Part shown: positions 22,212-25,208 of the stretch, piece by piece
How the letters are laid out: every line of letters starts with the position of its first letter
How positions within the stretch are numbered: the first letter of the stretch is position 1
From: Streptomonospora nanhaiensis
GTDB taxonomy: Bacteria; Actinomycetota; Actinomycetes; Streptosporangiales; Streptosporangiaceae
Assembly (NCBI RefSeq): GCF_026642255.1
Contig: NZ_CP113264.1
Location: forward strand, 6,200,001-6,264,000
Length of the DNA stretch: 64,000 bases
Reading direction: 5' to 3'
Position numbers and translations under genes: made by a program
Notes under the pieces: model-generated
What the model was told of the DNA's origin: nothing
The model's database searches: none
Seen by the model: only the letters and a program-made list of their open reading frames with translations

Positions 22212-23039
22212 TCAGCCGACGACGCGCCGTCGCATCTGGAAGCCTGCCAGGAACCACATCAGCACGATGAACCCCAGCAGCACCCCGACGTGGAGGAGCG
22301 CCGCACCGGCGCCGAGCCCTCCGAACACCGAGCCGCGGATCAGCTCGACCGCGTGGTAGAGCGGGTTGGCCATGGCGGCGTTCTGCACCCAGGCGGGCAG
22401 CTCCGTGAGCGGGAAGAACGTGCCCGCGACCAGGAACAGCGGAGTGAACAGGCCGCTGAACACGTAGTCCATGGACCGCACCGACGTGATCACCGCGGAG
22501 ATCCAGATGCCGAAGAGCGCGAACGCGAACCCGGCCAGGAACGCGATGAACGGCACCAGGAGCATGCCCGGGCCGGGTCGGAGCCCGAAGCCGACGGCGA
22601 CCAGCAGGGGGACGCAGCCGTACACGCCCGAGCGCATCGCCAGCCACAGGGCCTCGCCGGTGACGAGCTCGCGCACGTCCACCGGGGCGGCGAGGATGCC
22701 CTCGTAGGTGTGCAGGAAGCGCCGCTTGATGAAGGTGTTGATGACGGCGGGCATCATCGACTGGAACATCACGGACACCGCCACGATGCCGGTGCCGAGG
22801 AAGTCGATGTAGCTGAACCCGGCGAGGGTGCCGATGAGGGCGCCCATCCCGAATCCGAAGCAGAGCAGGTAGAGGGTCGGCTCGACGACGGCGGCGAACG
22901 TGGTGGCGCGCCAGGACTGGCCGTACAGGATCCACTCGCGGGCGACGACGCCGATCACGGCGTCGGCCTCGATCCGTCCGGGGCGCGCGTGGACCTCGGG
23001 CCGGGCGTCGTCCCTGGCCCGGTCGTGCTGGATGCTCAT
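22212..23039 (-). CDS. ABC-2 type exporter permease
   Basis: 275 residues with six membrane helices and an N-terminal cytoplasmic stretch; typical of the DrrB/NodJ group. Family features include EPTLYLLCFGFGMGALIG, SYIDFLGTGIVAVSVMFQSMMPAV and, in the second half, LFLVAGTFFPLTELPAWVQNAAMANPLYHAVELIRG. The start overlaps the stop of the ATPase gene by four bases (ATGA). Together they make a two-gene exporter for a lipid, glycan or drug; the substrate is unknown. Confidence 0.92.
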   Translation of the reverse strand: MSIQHDRARDDARPEVHARPGRIEADAVIGVVAREWILYGQSWRATTFAAVVEPTLYLLCFGFGMGALIGTLAGFSYIDFLGTGIVAVSVMFQSMMPAVINTFIKRRFLHTYEGILAAPVDVRELVTGEALWLAMRSGVYGCVPLLVAVGFGLRPGPGMLLVPFIAFLAGFAFALFGIWISAVITSVRSMDYVFSGLFTPLFLVAGTFFPLTELPAWVQNAAMANPLYHAVELIRGSVFGGLGAGAALLHVGVLLGFIVLMWFLAGFQMRRRVVG

Positions 23040-24013
23040 TCGACGCTCTCTCCGGTCAGGGTCACGAACACGTCCTCCAGGGTGCTGGCCCGGCGGTGGG
23101 GGGTCCCCAGCCGGTCGCGGAGGGAGTCGGGCAGCTCCTCGGCACGCAGGACCGACAGGGTGACGCCGGTCCGGCGGGTGGTGAAGCCGTGCTCGCGGAC
23201 GCGGCGTTCGAGGACGTCGGCGCCCTCGTCCCCCGGGGTGTACTCCTCGACGGTGGAGCCCGCGTACTTGGCGACGAGGTCGGCGGGGGTGCCGCGCTCG
23301 ACCACCGCGCCCTTCGCCATGAGCGCCACCTCGTCGGAGAGGCGTTCGGCCTCCTCGATGTAGTGGGTGGACATCAGGACGGTGACGCCCTCGTCGCGCA
23401 GCGCGGAGATGACGCCCCACAGGTCCTGGCGCACCTGCGGGTCGAGGCCGACGGTGGGCTCGTCCATGAGGACGAGCTCGGGTCTGTGGAGGAGGGCGCG
23501 GACGATGAGGAGGCGGCGGCGCATGCCCCCGGACAGGTCGTCCACGAGCGTGTCGCCCCGGTCGCCGAGCTGGGCGAGGCGCATGGCGCGGGCGACCGCC
23601 TCCTTGCGCCGGGCGCGCGGAACCCGGTAGAGGAAGGAGAACATCCGCAGGTTCTGCTCGACGGTGAGCTCCTCGTCGAGGTTGTCGTGCTGGGGGACGA
23701 CGCCCATGCGGGCGCGGGCCCACTTGGACTCGGCGGGGATCGGGTGCCCGAGGATGCGGATCTCGCCCTCGTCCGCGAGGGACTGGGCGGTCAGCATCTT
23801 CATGGTCGTGGACTTGCCCGCGCCGTTGGGGCCGAGGAGTCCGAGGACGACGCCCTGGGGGACCTCCAGGTCGAGCCCGTCGACGGCGGTGAGCGTTCCG
23901 AAGCGCTTGACGACGCCGCGGAGCAGCAGTGCGGGCACGTCCGGCGGGGGTGTGTCGACGGGGGTGGAGGACGCGCTCCCGGGCAGGCGGCGGCCGGGCA
24001 CAGGTGTGGTCAT
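23036..24013 (-). CDS. ABC exporter ATPase (DrrA/NodI type)
   Basis: 325 residues. Walker A GPNGAGKST with lysine 67, Q-loop VVPQHDNLD, signature LSGGMRRRL, Walker B LVLMDEPTVGLD and the H-loop STHYIEEAERLSDEV. The C-terminal 80 residues (VEEYTPGDEGADVLERRVREHGF and STLEDVFVTLTGE) are those of DrrA/NodI exporters. Start ATG 24013; there is no RBS, and TACGGT lies 6 nt upstream, so the mRNA is probably leaderless. Operon with the permease. Confidence 0.95.
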   Translation of the reverse strand: MTTPVPGRRLPGSASSTPVDTPPPDVPALLLRGVVKRFGTLTAVDGLDLEVPQGVVLGLLGPNGAGKSTTMKMLTAQSLADEGEIRILGHPIPAESKWARARMGVVPQHDNLDEELTVEQNLRMFSFLYRVPRARRKEAVARAMRLAQLGDRGDTLVDDLSGGMRRRLLIVRALLHRPELVLMDEPTVGLDPQVRQDLWGVISALRDEGVTVLMSTHYIEEAERLSDEVALMAKGAVVERGTPADLVAKYAGSTVEEYTPGDEGADVLERRVREHGFTTRRTGVTLSVLRAEELPDSLRDRLGTPHRRASTLEDVFVTLTGESVE

Positions 24014-24025: not shown

Positions 24026-24177
24026 GGCACCGGGTGCCCGGAATTCCAACGGGTTTACGCCCGCCGCGCGGACGCCGCACGGCCTGTTCGCGCGCCCCCG
24101 GAGGCCGGGCGCCGCAGGCGGGGGCCGCCCCGGCGACCCCCCGCGCCGCGCCCGCCCCGGGGGCCGCGGAAAACCCG

Positions 24178-24207
24178 TTGCGCCCGCTCGGAGCCCCTGC
24201 CTACCAT
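24178..24207 (+). promoter_or_regulatory. Candidate promoter of the RNHCP leader
   Basis: TTGCGC (about 24178-24183) and TACCAT (about 24202-24207) are 18 nt apart, with an AAAA run just upstream of the -35 box. An AT-rich stretch at that place is what WhiB7/WblC-type promoters show, but this is only a resemblance. Confidence 0.35.
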
Positions 24208-24213
24208 CGTCAC

Positions 24214-24235
24214 TTCCGGGCCGGGGAGCCCGGAA
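24214..24235 (+). promoter_or_regulatory. Early leader hairpin
   Basis: Perfect 8-bp stem TTCCGGGC / GCCCGGAA with a six-base loop, placed near the 5-prime end of the proposed RNHCP leader RNA. Confidence 0.5.
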
Positions 24236-24286
24236 CCGGAGACGATTCCCGGGGGCCGACGCCCCACGGGTCAAGGACAGGTGTTG

Positions 24287-24343
24287 ATGAACCGGAACGC
24301 GCCGAGCGCGCCTCACATCCCTGCGGGCCCCCGCACCGTCTGA
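24287..24343 (+). CDS. Putative 18-residue leader peptide upstream of RNHCP genes
   Basis: ATG at 24287 with AAGGA 9 nt upstream (GTG 24281 and TTG 24284 are in frame); the peptide is MNRNAPSAPHIPAGPRTV and stops at 24341-24343. The nine bases 24301-24309 (GCCGAGCGC) inside it are exactly complementary to 24367-24375, which directly precede the RBS-masking hairpin. A ribosome on the leader ORF would therefore alter folding downstream. Such an arrangement is typical of translation- or transcription-attenuated genes. The peptide is not known to me; conservation in relatives would decide. Confidence 0.4.
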   Translation: MNRNAPSAPHIPAGPRTV

Positions 24344-24375
24344 CGCGGCGCCCCTTCCGTCGAGAAGCGCTCGGC
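24301..24375 (+). promoter_or_regulatory. Long-range stem: leader ORF pairs with region before the RNHCP RBS
   Basis: GCCGAGCGC (24301-24309) and GCGCTCGGC (24367-24375) are perfect 9-base complements. The first arm lies within the leader ORF; the second abuts the arm that masks the RBS. Confidence 0.5.
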
Positions 24376-24378
24376 CTG

Positions 24379-24411
24379 CTCCTGCTGCCTCGTACCACTT
24401 CCAGCAAGGAG
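24379..24411 (+). promoter_or_regulatory. RBS-sequestering hairpin of the first RNHCP gene
   Basis: CTCCTGCTG (24379-24387) pairs with CAGCAAGGAG (24402-24411) through nine base pairs and one bulged A. The right arm contains the Shine-Dalgarno AAGGAG (24406-24411), 6 nt before the GTG at 24418, so translation should be blocked when the hairpin forms. Confidence 0.6.
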
Positions 24412-24417
24412 TTCCGG

Positions 24418-24795
24418 GTGTCCACCACCGATTCACCGTACGAACCCAGTCCCACCCTGCGCACCAGCACCTTCACGTGCCTGCGCTGCGGCCTGTCCGT
24501 GTCCGCCCTCGCGCCCGGGGGAGAACGGCGCGACCACTGCCCGAGCTGCCTGACCTCGCGCCACGTCGTCGACCAGGTCCGGGGCGGCCGCTCCGACTGC
24601 GGCGGGCGCATGGTCCCCGTCTCCGTCGCGGTCGTGCGCGACGGGGCCTGGATGCTCGTCCACCGCTGCACGCTGTGCGACGAGCTGGCCGGGAGCTCCG
24701 TCTCCCGGGACGACAACCACCTCGTCCTCATGAGGATCGCGGTGCGGCCCCTCGCCGACCCGCCGTTCCCGCTCGACCTGTTCGGGGAGGTGTGA
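24418..24795 (+). CDS. RNHCP-domain zinc-binding protein, copy 1
   Basis: 125 residues from the GTG at 24418 with AAGGAG 6 nt upstream. Cysteine pairs C21-x2-C24, C41-x2-C44 (within RRDHCPSC) and C84-x2-C87 (HRCTLCDEL), plus C61, suggest a zinc-ribbon-like fold. The RNHCP family is named after the Arg-Asn-His-Cys-Pro signature, which here reads RDHCP. Function is not established; the fold and basic residues hint at a nucleic-acid or ribosome partner, which is inference only. It forms an operon with copy 2, starting three bases before. Confidence 0.75.
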   Translation: MSTTDSPYEPSPTLRTSTFTCLRCGLSVSALAPGGERRDHCPSCLTSRHVVDQVRGGRSDCGGRMVPVSVAVVRDGAWMLVHRCTLCDELAGSSVSRDDNHLVLMRIAVRPLADPPFPLDLFGEV

Positions 24796-24797
24796 GC

Positions 24798-25208
24798 GTG
24801 GGACGGCGCAACGTGCGTGACCGGCGGCCCCAGCGGGCGAAGACCGTCCGGCACGCCGCCGGCGAGTCCGGGTCGTTCCGGTGCGCGGGGTGCCGTCTGG
24901 AGGTCCCCCTCGCCGCACCGGGGACCAGCCACCGGAACCACTGCCCGAACTGCCTGGCCAGCCTGCACGTGGACCGCCGGATTCCCGGTGACCGCGCCGC
25001 GGACTGCCGGGGCAGGATGGTCGCGCTGAGCCTCTCCTCGCGTCCCGACGGGGAGTGGATGCTCATCCACCGCTGCGTTCGCTGCGGCGAACTCGGCTCC
25101 AACCGCGTGGCCGGGGACGACAACCCCCGCGCCCTGGTCCGGTTGGCGGTCCGCCCGCTCGCGGCCGCCTCCGACGCGGTGGCGAGGCGGGTGCTGCTCC
25201 GCCTGTAG
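24798..25208 (+). CDS. RNHCP-domain zinc-binding protein, copy 2
   Basis: 136 residues from the GTG at 24798, supported by GGGGAGG 7 nt upstream; a GTG at 24792 would overlap the stop of copy 1. It keeps the exact RNHCP signature (HRNHCPNC, about 45-52), C29-x2-C32 and HRCVRCGELGSNRVAGDDNPR. It is about 35-40 percent identical to copy 1 by eye, so the two arose by tandem duplication. The N-terminus is more basic (VGRRNVRDRRPQRAKTVRH). Function unknown; a hairpin at 25241-25274 follows the operon. Confidence 0.75.
   Translation: MGRRNVRDRRPQRAKTVRHAAGESGSFRCAGCRLEVPLAAPGTSHRNHCPNCLASLHVDRRIPGDRAADCRGRMVALSLSSRPDGEWMLIHRCVRCGELGSNRVAGDDNPRALVRLAVRPLAAASDAVARRVLLRL

Follow-up and report, generated by a model that had tools for sequence, protein, structure and literature searches.

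Attenuators of the ermC/ermB and cat types consist of a short leader ORF and of leader segments pairing as 1:2 and 3:4, with the Shine-Dalgarno sequence (SD) of the controlled gene located in segment 4. For ermC, masking of the ribosome binding site (RBS) in the leader structure is described in the text of PMC13410324. In the toiL leader of Escherichia coli topAI, the sequence of an upstream ORF (uORF) pairs around the downstream RBS, and relief has been proposed to occur when drugs stall ribosomes (sections of PMC12121999). In Streptomyces, the uORFs of are5sc and tiaA, with the peptides MLV and MVGDDDISG and with ABCF targets, answer ribosome drugs (sections of PMC12421871). Promoters dependent on WblC (WhiB7) in Streptomyces coelicolor are composed of GAAAWY, 3 bp, TKGMNN, 16-19 bp and TANNNT, and transcripts start 7-8 bp downstream (text sections of PMC7157823).

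Here, a leader ahead of two tandem RNHCP genes (PF12647) was analysed in a 64,000-nucleotide stretch of DNA from Streptomonospora nanhaiensis, referred to as the window. The leader shares with the ermC/ermB and cat types the short leader ORF, the pairings 1:2 and 3:4 and the SD in segment 4, but no strong 2:3 alternative was found in it and its target is not a known resistance gene. As in toiL, uORF sequence pairs around the downstream RBS, whereas sequence, host and target differ, and the RNHCP leader has three helices, a WblC-type promoter and a relief that is putative (compared with sections of PMC12121999). It has in common with are5sc and tiaA, which answer ribosome drugs, that an actinomycete uORF is involved; those systems differ in their peptides, in a predicted terminator/antiterminator switch and in their ABCF targets (sections of PMC12421871). 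The promoter architecture of the WblC regulon is found again, exactly so in the window, while RNHCP is not named in sections 8, 10 and 12 of PMC7157823. Within the open-access literature searched, neither a paper on RNHCP or PF12647 nor an earlier report of the leader was found. The type of control is known and the leader is real and widely conserved; the interest lies in an unstudied protein family that is tied to translation stress.

The leader ahead of the tandem RNHCP genes

The original prediction comprised an 18-codon ORF, a 9-base complement, a nine-pair stem over the RBS and an 8-bp hairpin, and all four are present in the window at the positions listed below together with the promoter and the genes.

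24169..24174, + strand: WblC/WhiB7 box GAAAAC (GAAAWY), 3 bp upstream of the -35 element
24178..24183, + strand: -35 element TTGCGC (TKGMNN)
24202..24207, + strand: -10 element TACCAT (TANNNT), 18-bp spacer, predicted transcription start at about 24214-24215
24214..24235, + strand: 8-bp hairpin at the predicted 5′ end of the transcript
24273..24277, + strand: SD of the leader ORF, AAGGA
24287..24343, + strand: leader ORF, MNRNAPSAPHIPAGPRTV and stop codon
24292..24298, + strand: segment 0, uORF codons 2-4, CCGGAAC, partner of 24411-24417 in the minimum free energy (MFE) fold
24301..24309, + strand: segment 1, uORF codons 5-8, partner of segment 2
24312..24314, + strand: extension of segment 1, CUC, possible partner of GAG at 24362-24364
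24362..24364, + strand: segment 2′, GAG, in many relatives GAGGC
24367..24375, + strand: segment 2, GCGCUCGGC, possible partner of segment 1 or of CCGGGUG at 24414-24420
24379..24387, + strand: segment 3, anti-SD, CUCCUGCUG
24402..24411, + strand: segment 4, CAGCAAGGAG, containing the RNHCP1 SD AAGGAG at 24406-24411
24411..24420, + strand: segment 5, GUUCCGGGUG, ending with and including the RNHCP1 GUG start codon
24418..24795, + strand: RNHCP1 (PF12647), 125 aa, GTG start
24798..25208, + strand: RNHCP2 (PF12647), 136 aa, starting 2 nt past the RNHCP1 stop codon

The 18 codons of the leader ORF were recomputed from the window sequence. Positions 24301-24309 (GCCGAGCGC) are the exact reverse complement of 24367-24375 over 9 nt, and 24379-24387 (CTCCTGCTG) forms nine pairs with 24402-24411, one A being bulged and AAGGAG being covered. 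In the MFE fold of this leader, helices 0:5, 1:2 and 3:4 meet in a three-way junction. In the 8-bp hairpin, 24214-24221 pairs with 24228-24235; a counterpart of the same sequence at the same place was not seen in eight Nocardiopsis relatives, the 5′ ends of which were folded and judged by eye. In DNA of this GC content, a 9-nt complement is by itself just slightly out of the ordinary: one as long turned up in 57 of 2000 dinucleotide shuffles of this sequence. The fold of 24287-24425 gave a z-score of -2.06, and 7 of 200 shuffles folded as well. A complement of at least 8 nt between the uORF and the downstream region was present in 69 of 87 unique leaders versus 239 of 1740 shuffles; it is this conservation across leaders, and not the single sequence, that places the structure beyond chance. 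With Rfam 15, no match in the window exceeded its gathering score, one match with an E-value of 9.6 being far below it.

Conservation of the leader ORF and of the helices

A PF12647 search of 60 genomes, 37 of them from the window's genus, found tandem pairs in 24 of these 37, its own included, and two more pairs (G060, G061) from a wider search brought the Nocardiopsis pairs to 26. Further pairs were collected from 394 genomes of the class, 246 of the Streptomyces group, 200 of the family and 78 of the Nocardia group, so that the domain-derived set consisted of 117 tandem loci (26 Nocardiopsis, 16 others and 75 from additional regions). A uORF was regarded as recognised if a uORF start and a core with at most three mismatches from GCGCCGAGCGCGCCTC were present. 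The leader was present in all 26 Nocardiopsis tandem loci. The ORF and the stem pairing, on the conservation of which the original prediction depended, were indeed conserved among relatives: the alignment of their leaders contained a recognised uORF in 98 of the 117 tandem loci, distributed over the Nocardiopsis, Streptomyces and Nocardia groups and relatives, and both stems with some compensatory changes. The exact leader pattern occurred in 14 of 40 genomes of the genus, once in each and always with tandem RNHCP genes. A collection of 84,980 species contained 57 stretches with this pattern, 26 of which had RNHCP downstream; by record title these were 9 Nocardiopsis, 8 Streptomyces, 4 Nocardia, 3 Glycomyces, 1 Microtetraspora and 1 Actinomadura.

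Two of the records are possibly mislabelled: the leader of L100 (titled Glycomyces fuscus) matches one in G003 of the window's genus, and that of L114 (titled Microtetraspora glauca) matches one in G497 of the Streptomyces group. No uORF core was recognisable in two Nocardia loci (L198, L203). The uORF has diverged in a Streptomyces subclade (L061-L063, L144, L145, L161, L162, L165, L167, L172), where it reads MPRxVTPSLPRR in L061, L063, L162 and L172; segment 2 is altered as well (GTGCTCGGTAC in many) and, as judged by eye, still complementary to the uORF. In L051 the leader core has diverged and the first RNHCP gene (G271:C17) carries an in-frame TGA within the domain.

The coding character of the uORF was assessed in 96 leaders. 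A stop codon between the core and segment 2 was found in the uORF frame of 95 leaders, compared with 25 and 27 leaders for the +1 and +2 frames. The start codon was ATG in 89, GTG in 5 and TTG in 2 cases, and 90 leaders had an SD-like 4-mer before the uORF. The consensus peptide was M-x-R-x-A-P-S-A-P, with Arg at codon 3 in 79 leaders and with A in 87, P in 93, S in 73, A in 91 and P in 88 leaders at codons 5-9. Codon 7 encodes S, R, G or C, and where it encodes R, G or C the neighbouring P and A are mostly kept, a pattern in favour of selection acting on both peptide and RNA. These features indicate that the leader ORF is under selection for translation. An untranslated uORF, with complementarities that arise from high GC content, would agree with the 57 shuffles mentioned above; however, stop codons specific to one frame, a uORF motif and position kept across genera, and compensatory changes make this explanation very improbable.

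Helices were counted from per-sequence duplex folds of 87 unique leaders, in which registers can shift; helix 1:2 had a mean of 14.1 pairs, extended via codons 9-10 to the conserved GAG(GC) before segment 2, and helix 3:4 a mean of 8.8 pairs with compensatory pair types. At several columns of helix 1:2, double changes that keep the pairing were present, and some synonymous changes of uORF codons were compensated in segment 2 or 2′. For example, U-A stands in place of C-G where a synonymous Ser codon is used (AGC>AGT; L160, L168, L171), and in place of G-C where the Ala codon has changed synonymously (GCG>GCT; L146, L149). In helix 3:4, C-G replaced U-A in six leaders of three groups. Uncompensated mismatches also occurred, among them C-U in 8 and A-C in 5 of the 87 leaders at two columns. 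RNAalifold on a 40-sequence alignment recovered helix 1:2 unaided; its covariation term was 0.02, and double changes affected 2 of the 8 pairs. Helix 3:4 was not recovered from this alignment.

When partners were swapped between genomes, 0 of 3000 swaps matched the cognate 1:2 or 3:4 duplexes, also within genus groups. This test controls relatedness only in part, and its specificity is incomplete: 0:4, a control pair, likewise reached 0 of 3000 within groups, and 1:5 came to 72 of 3000. Segments 0 and 2 are both widely complementary to the region before the RNHCP1 start, and the two pairings compete there; no covariation of 0:5 or 2:5 was detected by swaps within genus groups, and across all leaders 9 of 3000 swaps were as good for 0:5 and 1356 of 3000 for 2:5 (885 within groups). 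The 2:3 duplex amounted to -6.1 kcal/mol, had a weak swap signal (18 of 3000) and seldom formed in truncated folds; a strong switch of the ermC 2:3 type was not evident from these three analyses. Judged from the aligned leaders, the uORF pairs within a repressive structure, the stem of which covers the downstream RBS.

The WblC-type promoter

The window promoter GAAAAC-CCG-TTGCGC-18-TACCAT (24169-24207) is an exact match to the WblC consensus given in the text of PMC7157823, and by the 7-8 bp rule of this source the transcript is predicted to start near 24214. The attenuator would not be compatible with a start downstream of 24340; the predicted start lies well ahead of this position. Of 105 leaders, 43 had a strict WblC promoter and 59 had at least the relaxed form; none of 2100 shuffles and none of 105 reverse strands gave a match. 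Among the 26 Nocardiopsis leaders the counts were 18 (strict) and 25 (relaxed), and all but one of the 46 leaders without even the relaxed promoter are outside Nocardiopsis. The genome of the window encodes eight WhiB proteins, one of which (L224) has an RGRPRK AT-hook, which we take to mark it as a WblC homologue. By eye, the region upstream of L224 contains AAAAAT-AGG-TTGCCG ... TAGTCT, that is, a box deviating from the consensus by one letter, a -35 element and TANNNT.

In 27 single-copy RNHCP loci, box and -35 element were found in 8, the full strict promoter in 1 and neither in 19, and other leaders were present where examined. From the counts across leaders and single-copy loci, the link to WblC is firm for the Nocardiopsis tandem genes and partial elsewhere, and by sequence the WblC-type promoter is not a general property of the RNHCP family. 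Comparative evidence shows, at the level of predicted elements, the uORF frame, both helices and the class of the promoter.

The single-copy locus L005 (G040), from another family of the same order, has a full strict WblC promoter just upstream of the gene, near locus base 1368. Single-copy genes of the genus g82 (L041-L044, L046) have, by eye, a different leader, some 100 nt ahead of the RNHCP gene, in which a short ORF (roughly MxxRxATxxPSCTxQG) overlaps the RNHCP start and a GCRCGAC/GTCGTGC hairpin lies beside the SD; a WblC-like box and a -35 element are present in four of these five loci. A third leader type precedes the single-copy genes of L045, L047 and L048, with CGAGCGCCGTCG / GGCGGNNGGCGGCGC complementarity by eye.

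Proposed control, alternatives and the RNHCP proteins

We consider it probable that the leader is a uORF-dependent, toiL-like translational attenuator of the tandem RNHCP genes within the WblC translation-stress response. The mRNA would be transcribed from the WblC (WhiB7)-type promoter, WblC supplying the transcript under the same stress. In drug-free cells the uORF would be translated in passing and the RNA would close behind the ribosome into the three-way junction, with segment 0 on the start-codon region, codons 5-10 on segments 2′ and 2, and segment 3 over the RNHCP1 SD. A ribosome arrested at the uORF start or at the A-P-S-A codons would hold segments 0 and 1 open and loosen the lock on the RBS, whereupon RNHCP1 would be made and RNHCP2 afterwards by coupling. 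The leader appears to restrain the two RNHCP genes as long as protein synthesis runs undisturbed. What we infer is that ribosome arrest is the signal, together with the polarity of the response and the drug class. The A-P-S-A-P peptide may serve as an arrest sequence and would offer sites for arrest of the chloramphenicol type. To our knowledge it is no known arrest motif. Chloramphenicol arrest is described to require Ala, or to a lesser degree Ser or Thr, as the penultimate residue of the chain (sections of PMC8145938). By this rule, A5, S7 and A8 would place P-site stops at codons 6, 8 and 9, the first two of which lie within the codon range of modelled relief and the third outside it.

The effect of a stalled ribosome was modelled by masking the uORF accordingly and computing the energy needed to open the RBS. 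If every pair could form, this cost remained near 14-15 kcal/mol and changed on average by -0.6 to +0.8 kcal/mol (93 leaders). In a restricted ensemble, with pairing limited to the named segments (87 leaders), a P site at codon 1 lowered the cost by a mean of 2.4 kcal/mol (lower in 63 leaders, higher in 12) and codons 5-8 lowered it by 1.4-1.9 kcal/mol, while it rose by a mean of 1.0 kcal/mol at codon 3 and 1.3-1.7 kcal/mol at codons 9-11. For 24 Nocardiopsis leaders the changes were -3.1 at codon 1, -1.9 at codon 3, -2.1 to -2.8 at codons 5-8 and +1.7 to +1.8 at codons 9-11. The window's own leader gained essentially no relief at codon 1 or codons 5-8 in the restricted model (12.8 without a ribosome and 12.7 with its P site at codon 1, then 11.4, 14.1 and 13.3 at codons 2, 3 and 5-8). 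Helix 3:4 persisted under stalling in truncated folds. The attenuator of the original prediction is supported in part, as to a translated leader ORF, conserved stems, masking of the RBS and, via the WblC-type promoter, a link to translation stress; its exposure of the RBS by a stalled ribosome fared less well, with mean changes below 1 kcal/mol when all pairs were allowed and a mean relief of 1.4-2.4 kcal/mol in the restricted model only. According to the model, a stalled ribosome is a plausible inducer.

The same calculations bear on a response of opposite polarity, in which normal uORF translation would keep segment 1 away, leaving segment 2 to enclose hairpin 3:4 by pairing with the start-codon region as CGCUCGG:CCGGGUG, with the genes off; on failed uORF initiation, helix 1:2 would form, segment 5 would be released and the genes would be switched on. 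Masking of the uORF frees segment 2, which can then pair with the start-codon region instead: with a ribosome at codon 3 or 6, the 2:5 pairing took up about half of the ensemble compared with 0.01 in the free state, and the raised opening cost at codons 3 and 9-11 as well as the CCGGGTG common before the RNHCP start across genera fit this reading. Yet 2:5 lacks covariation, given the many swaps that were as good, several relatives have other start regions, and segment 5 is occupied by segment 0 when no ribosome is present, which would leave the RBS closed. We therefore regard opposite polarity as rather unlikely. Somewhat less likely still is mainly transcriptional control, with the uORF and helices governing Rho-dependent or pause-coupled termination before or within RNHCP1. 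Ribosome-mediated attenuation is described for the WblC and ARE5 genes of Streptomyces (sections of PMC12421871), and repressed translation can bring about Rho termination, as in toiL (sections of PMC12121999); the gene-adjacent stem, however, holds the SD and is not followed by a U-run, and so is not an intrinsic terminator. A leader answering shortage of zinc or another metal would suit RNHCP as a Cys/His-rich putative zinc protein, invariant Cys pairs and an HCPxC motif being found in 29 aligned RNHCP proteins, but the promoter is of the WblC class and a uORF that takes part in the structure around the RBS speaks for translation, which leaves this reading highly improbable. Between the two stresses named by the original prediction, translation stress is favoured for RNHCP, on account of the WblC-type promoter and the WblC homologue, whereas metal stress gained no positive support here.

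The two RNHCP proteins of the window score 109.8 and 122.1 bits against PF12647 (curated cut-off 24). The conserved Cys and His residues suggest that zinc may be bound. A sequence search of the PDB gave no relative of RNHCP1, and fold comparison gave no convincing match. Coming back to the toiL-like attenuator, the conserved translation-sensing leader and the WblC-type promoter would place the tandem RNHCP genes in the cell's response to antibiotics that target the ribosome, which hints that RNHCP proteins may help soil bacteria to cope with ribosome-blocking antibiotics. More speculatively, RNHCP pairs could be a widespread actinomycete factor for ribosome protection or rescue, for which WblC supplies the mRNA while the three-way-junction leader permits translation only upon an A-P-S-A-P arrest that reads out drugs of the peptidyl-transferase centre; we hold this wider proposal to be possible but doubtful. 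A divergent gene for an ABC transporter ATP-binding protein (window 23036-24013, - strand), with a likely start about 155 bp from the WblC-like box, lies apparently within an ABC exporter operon, as judged from ORF translations only.
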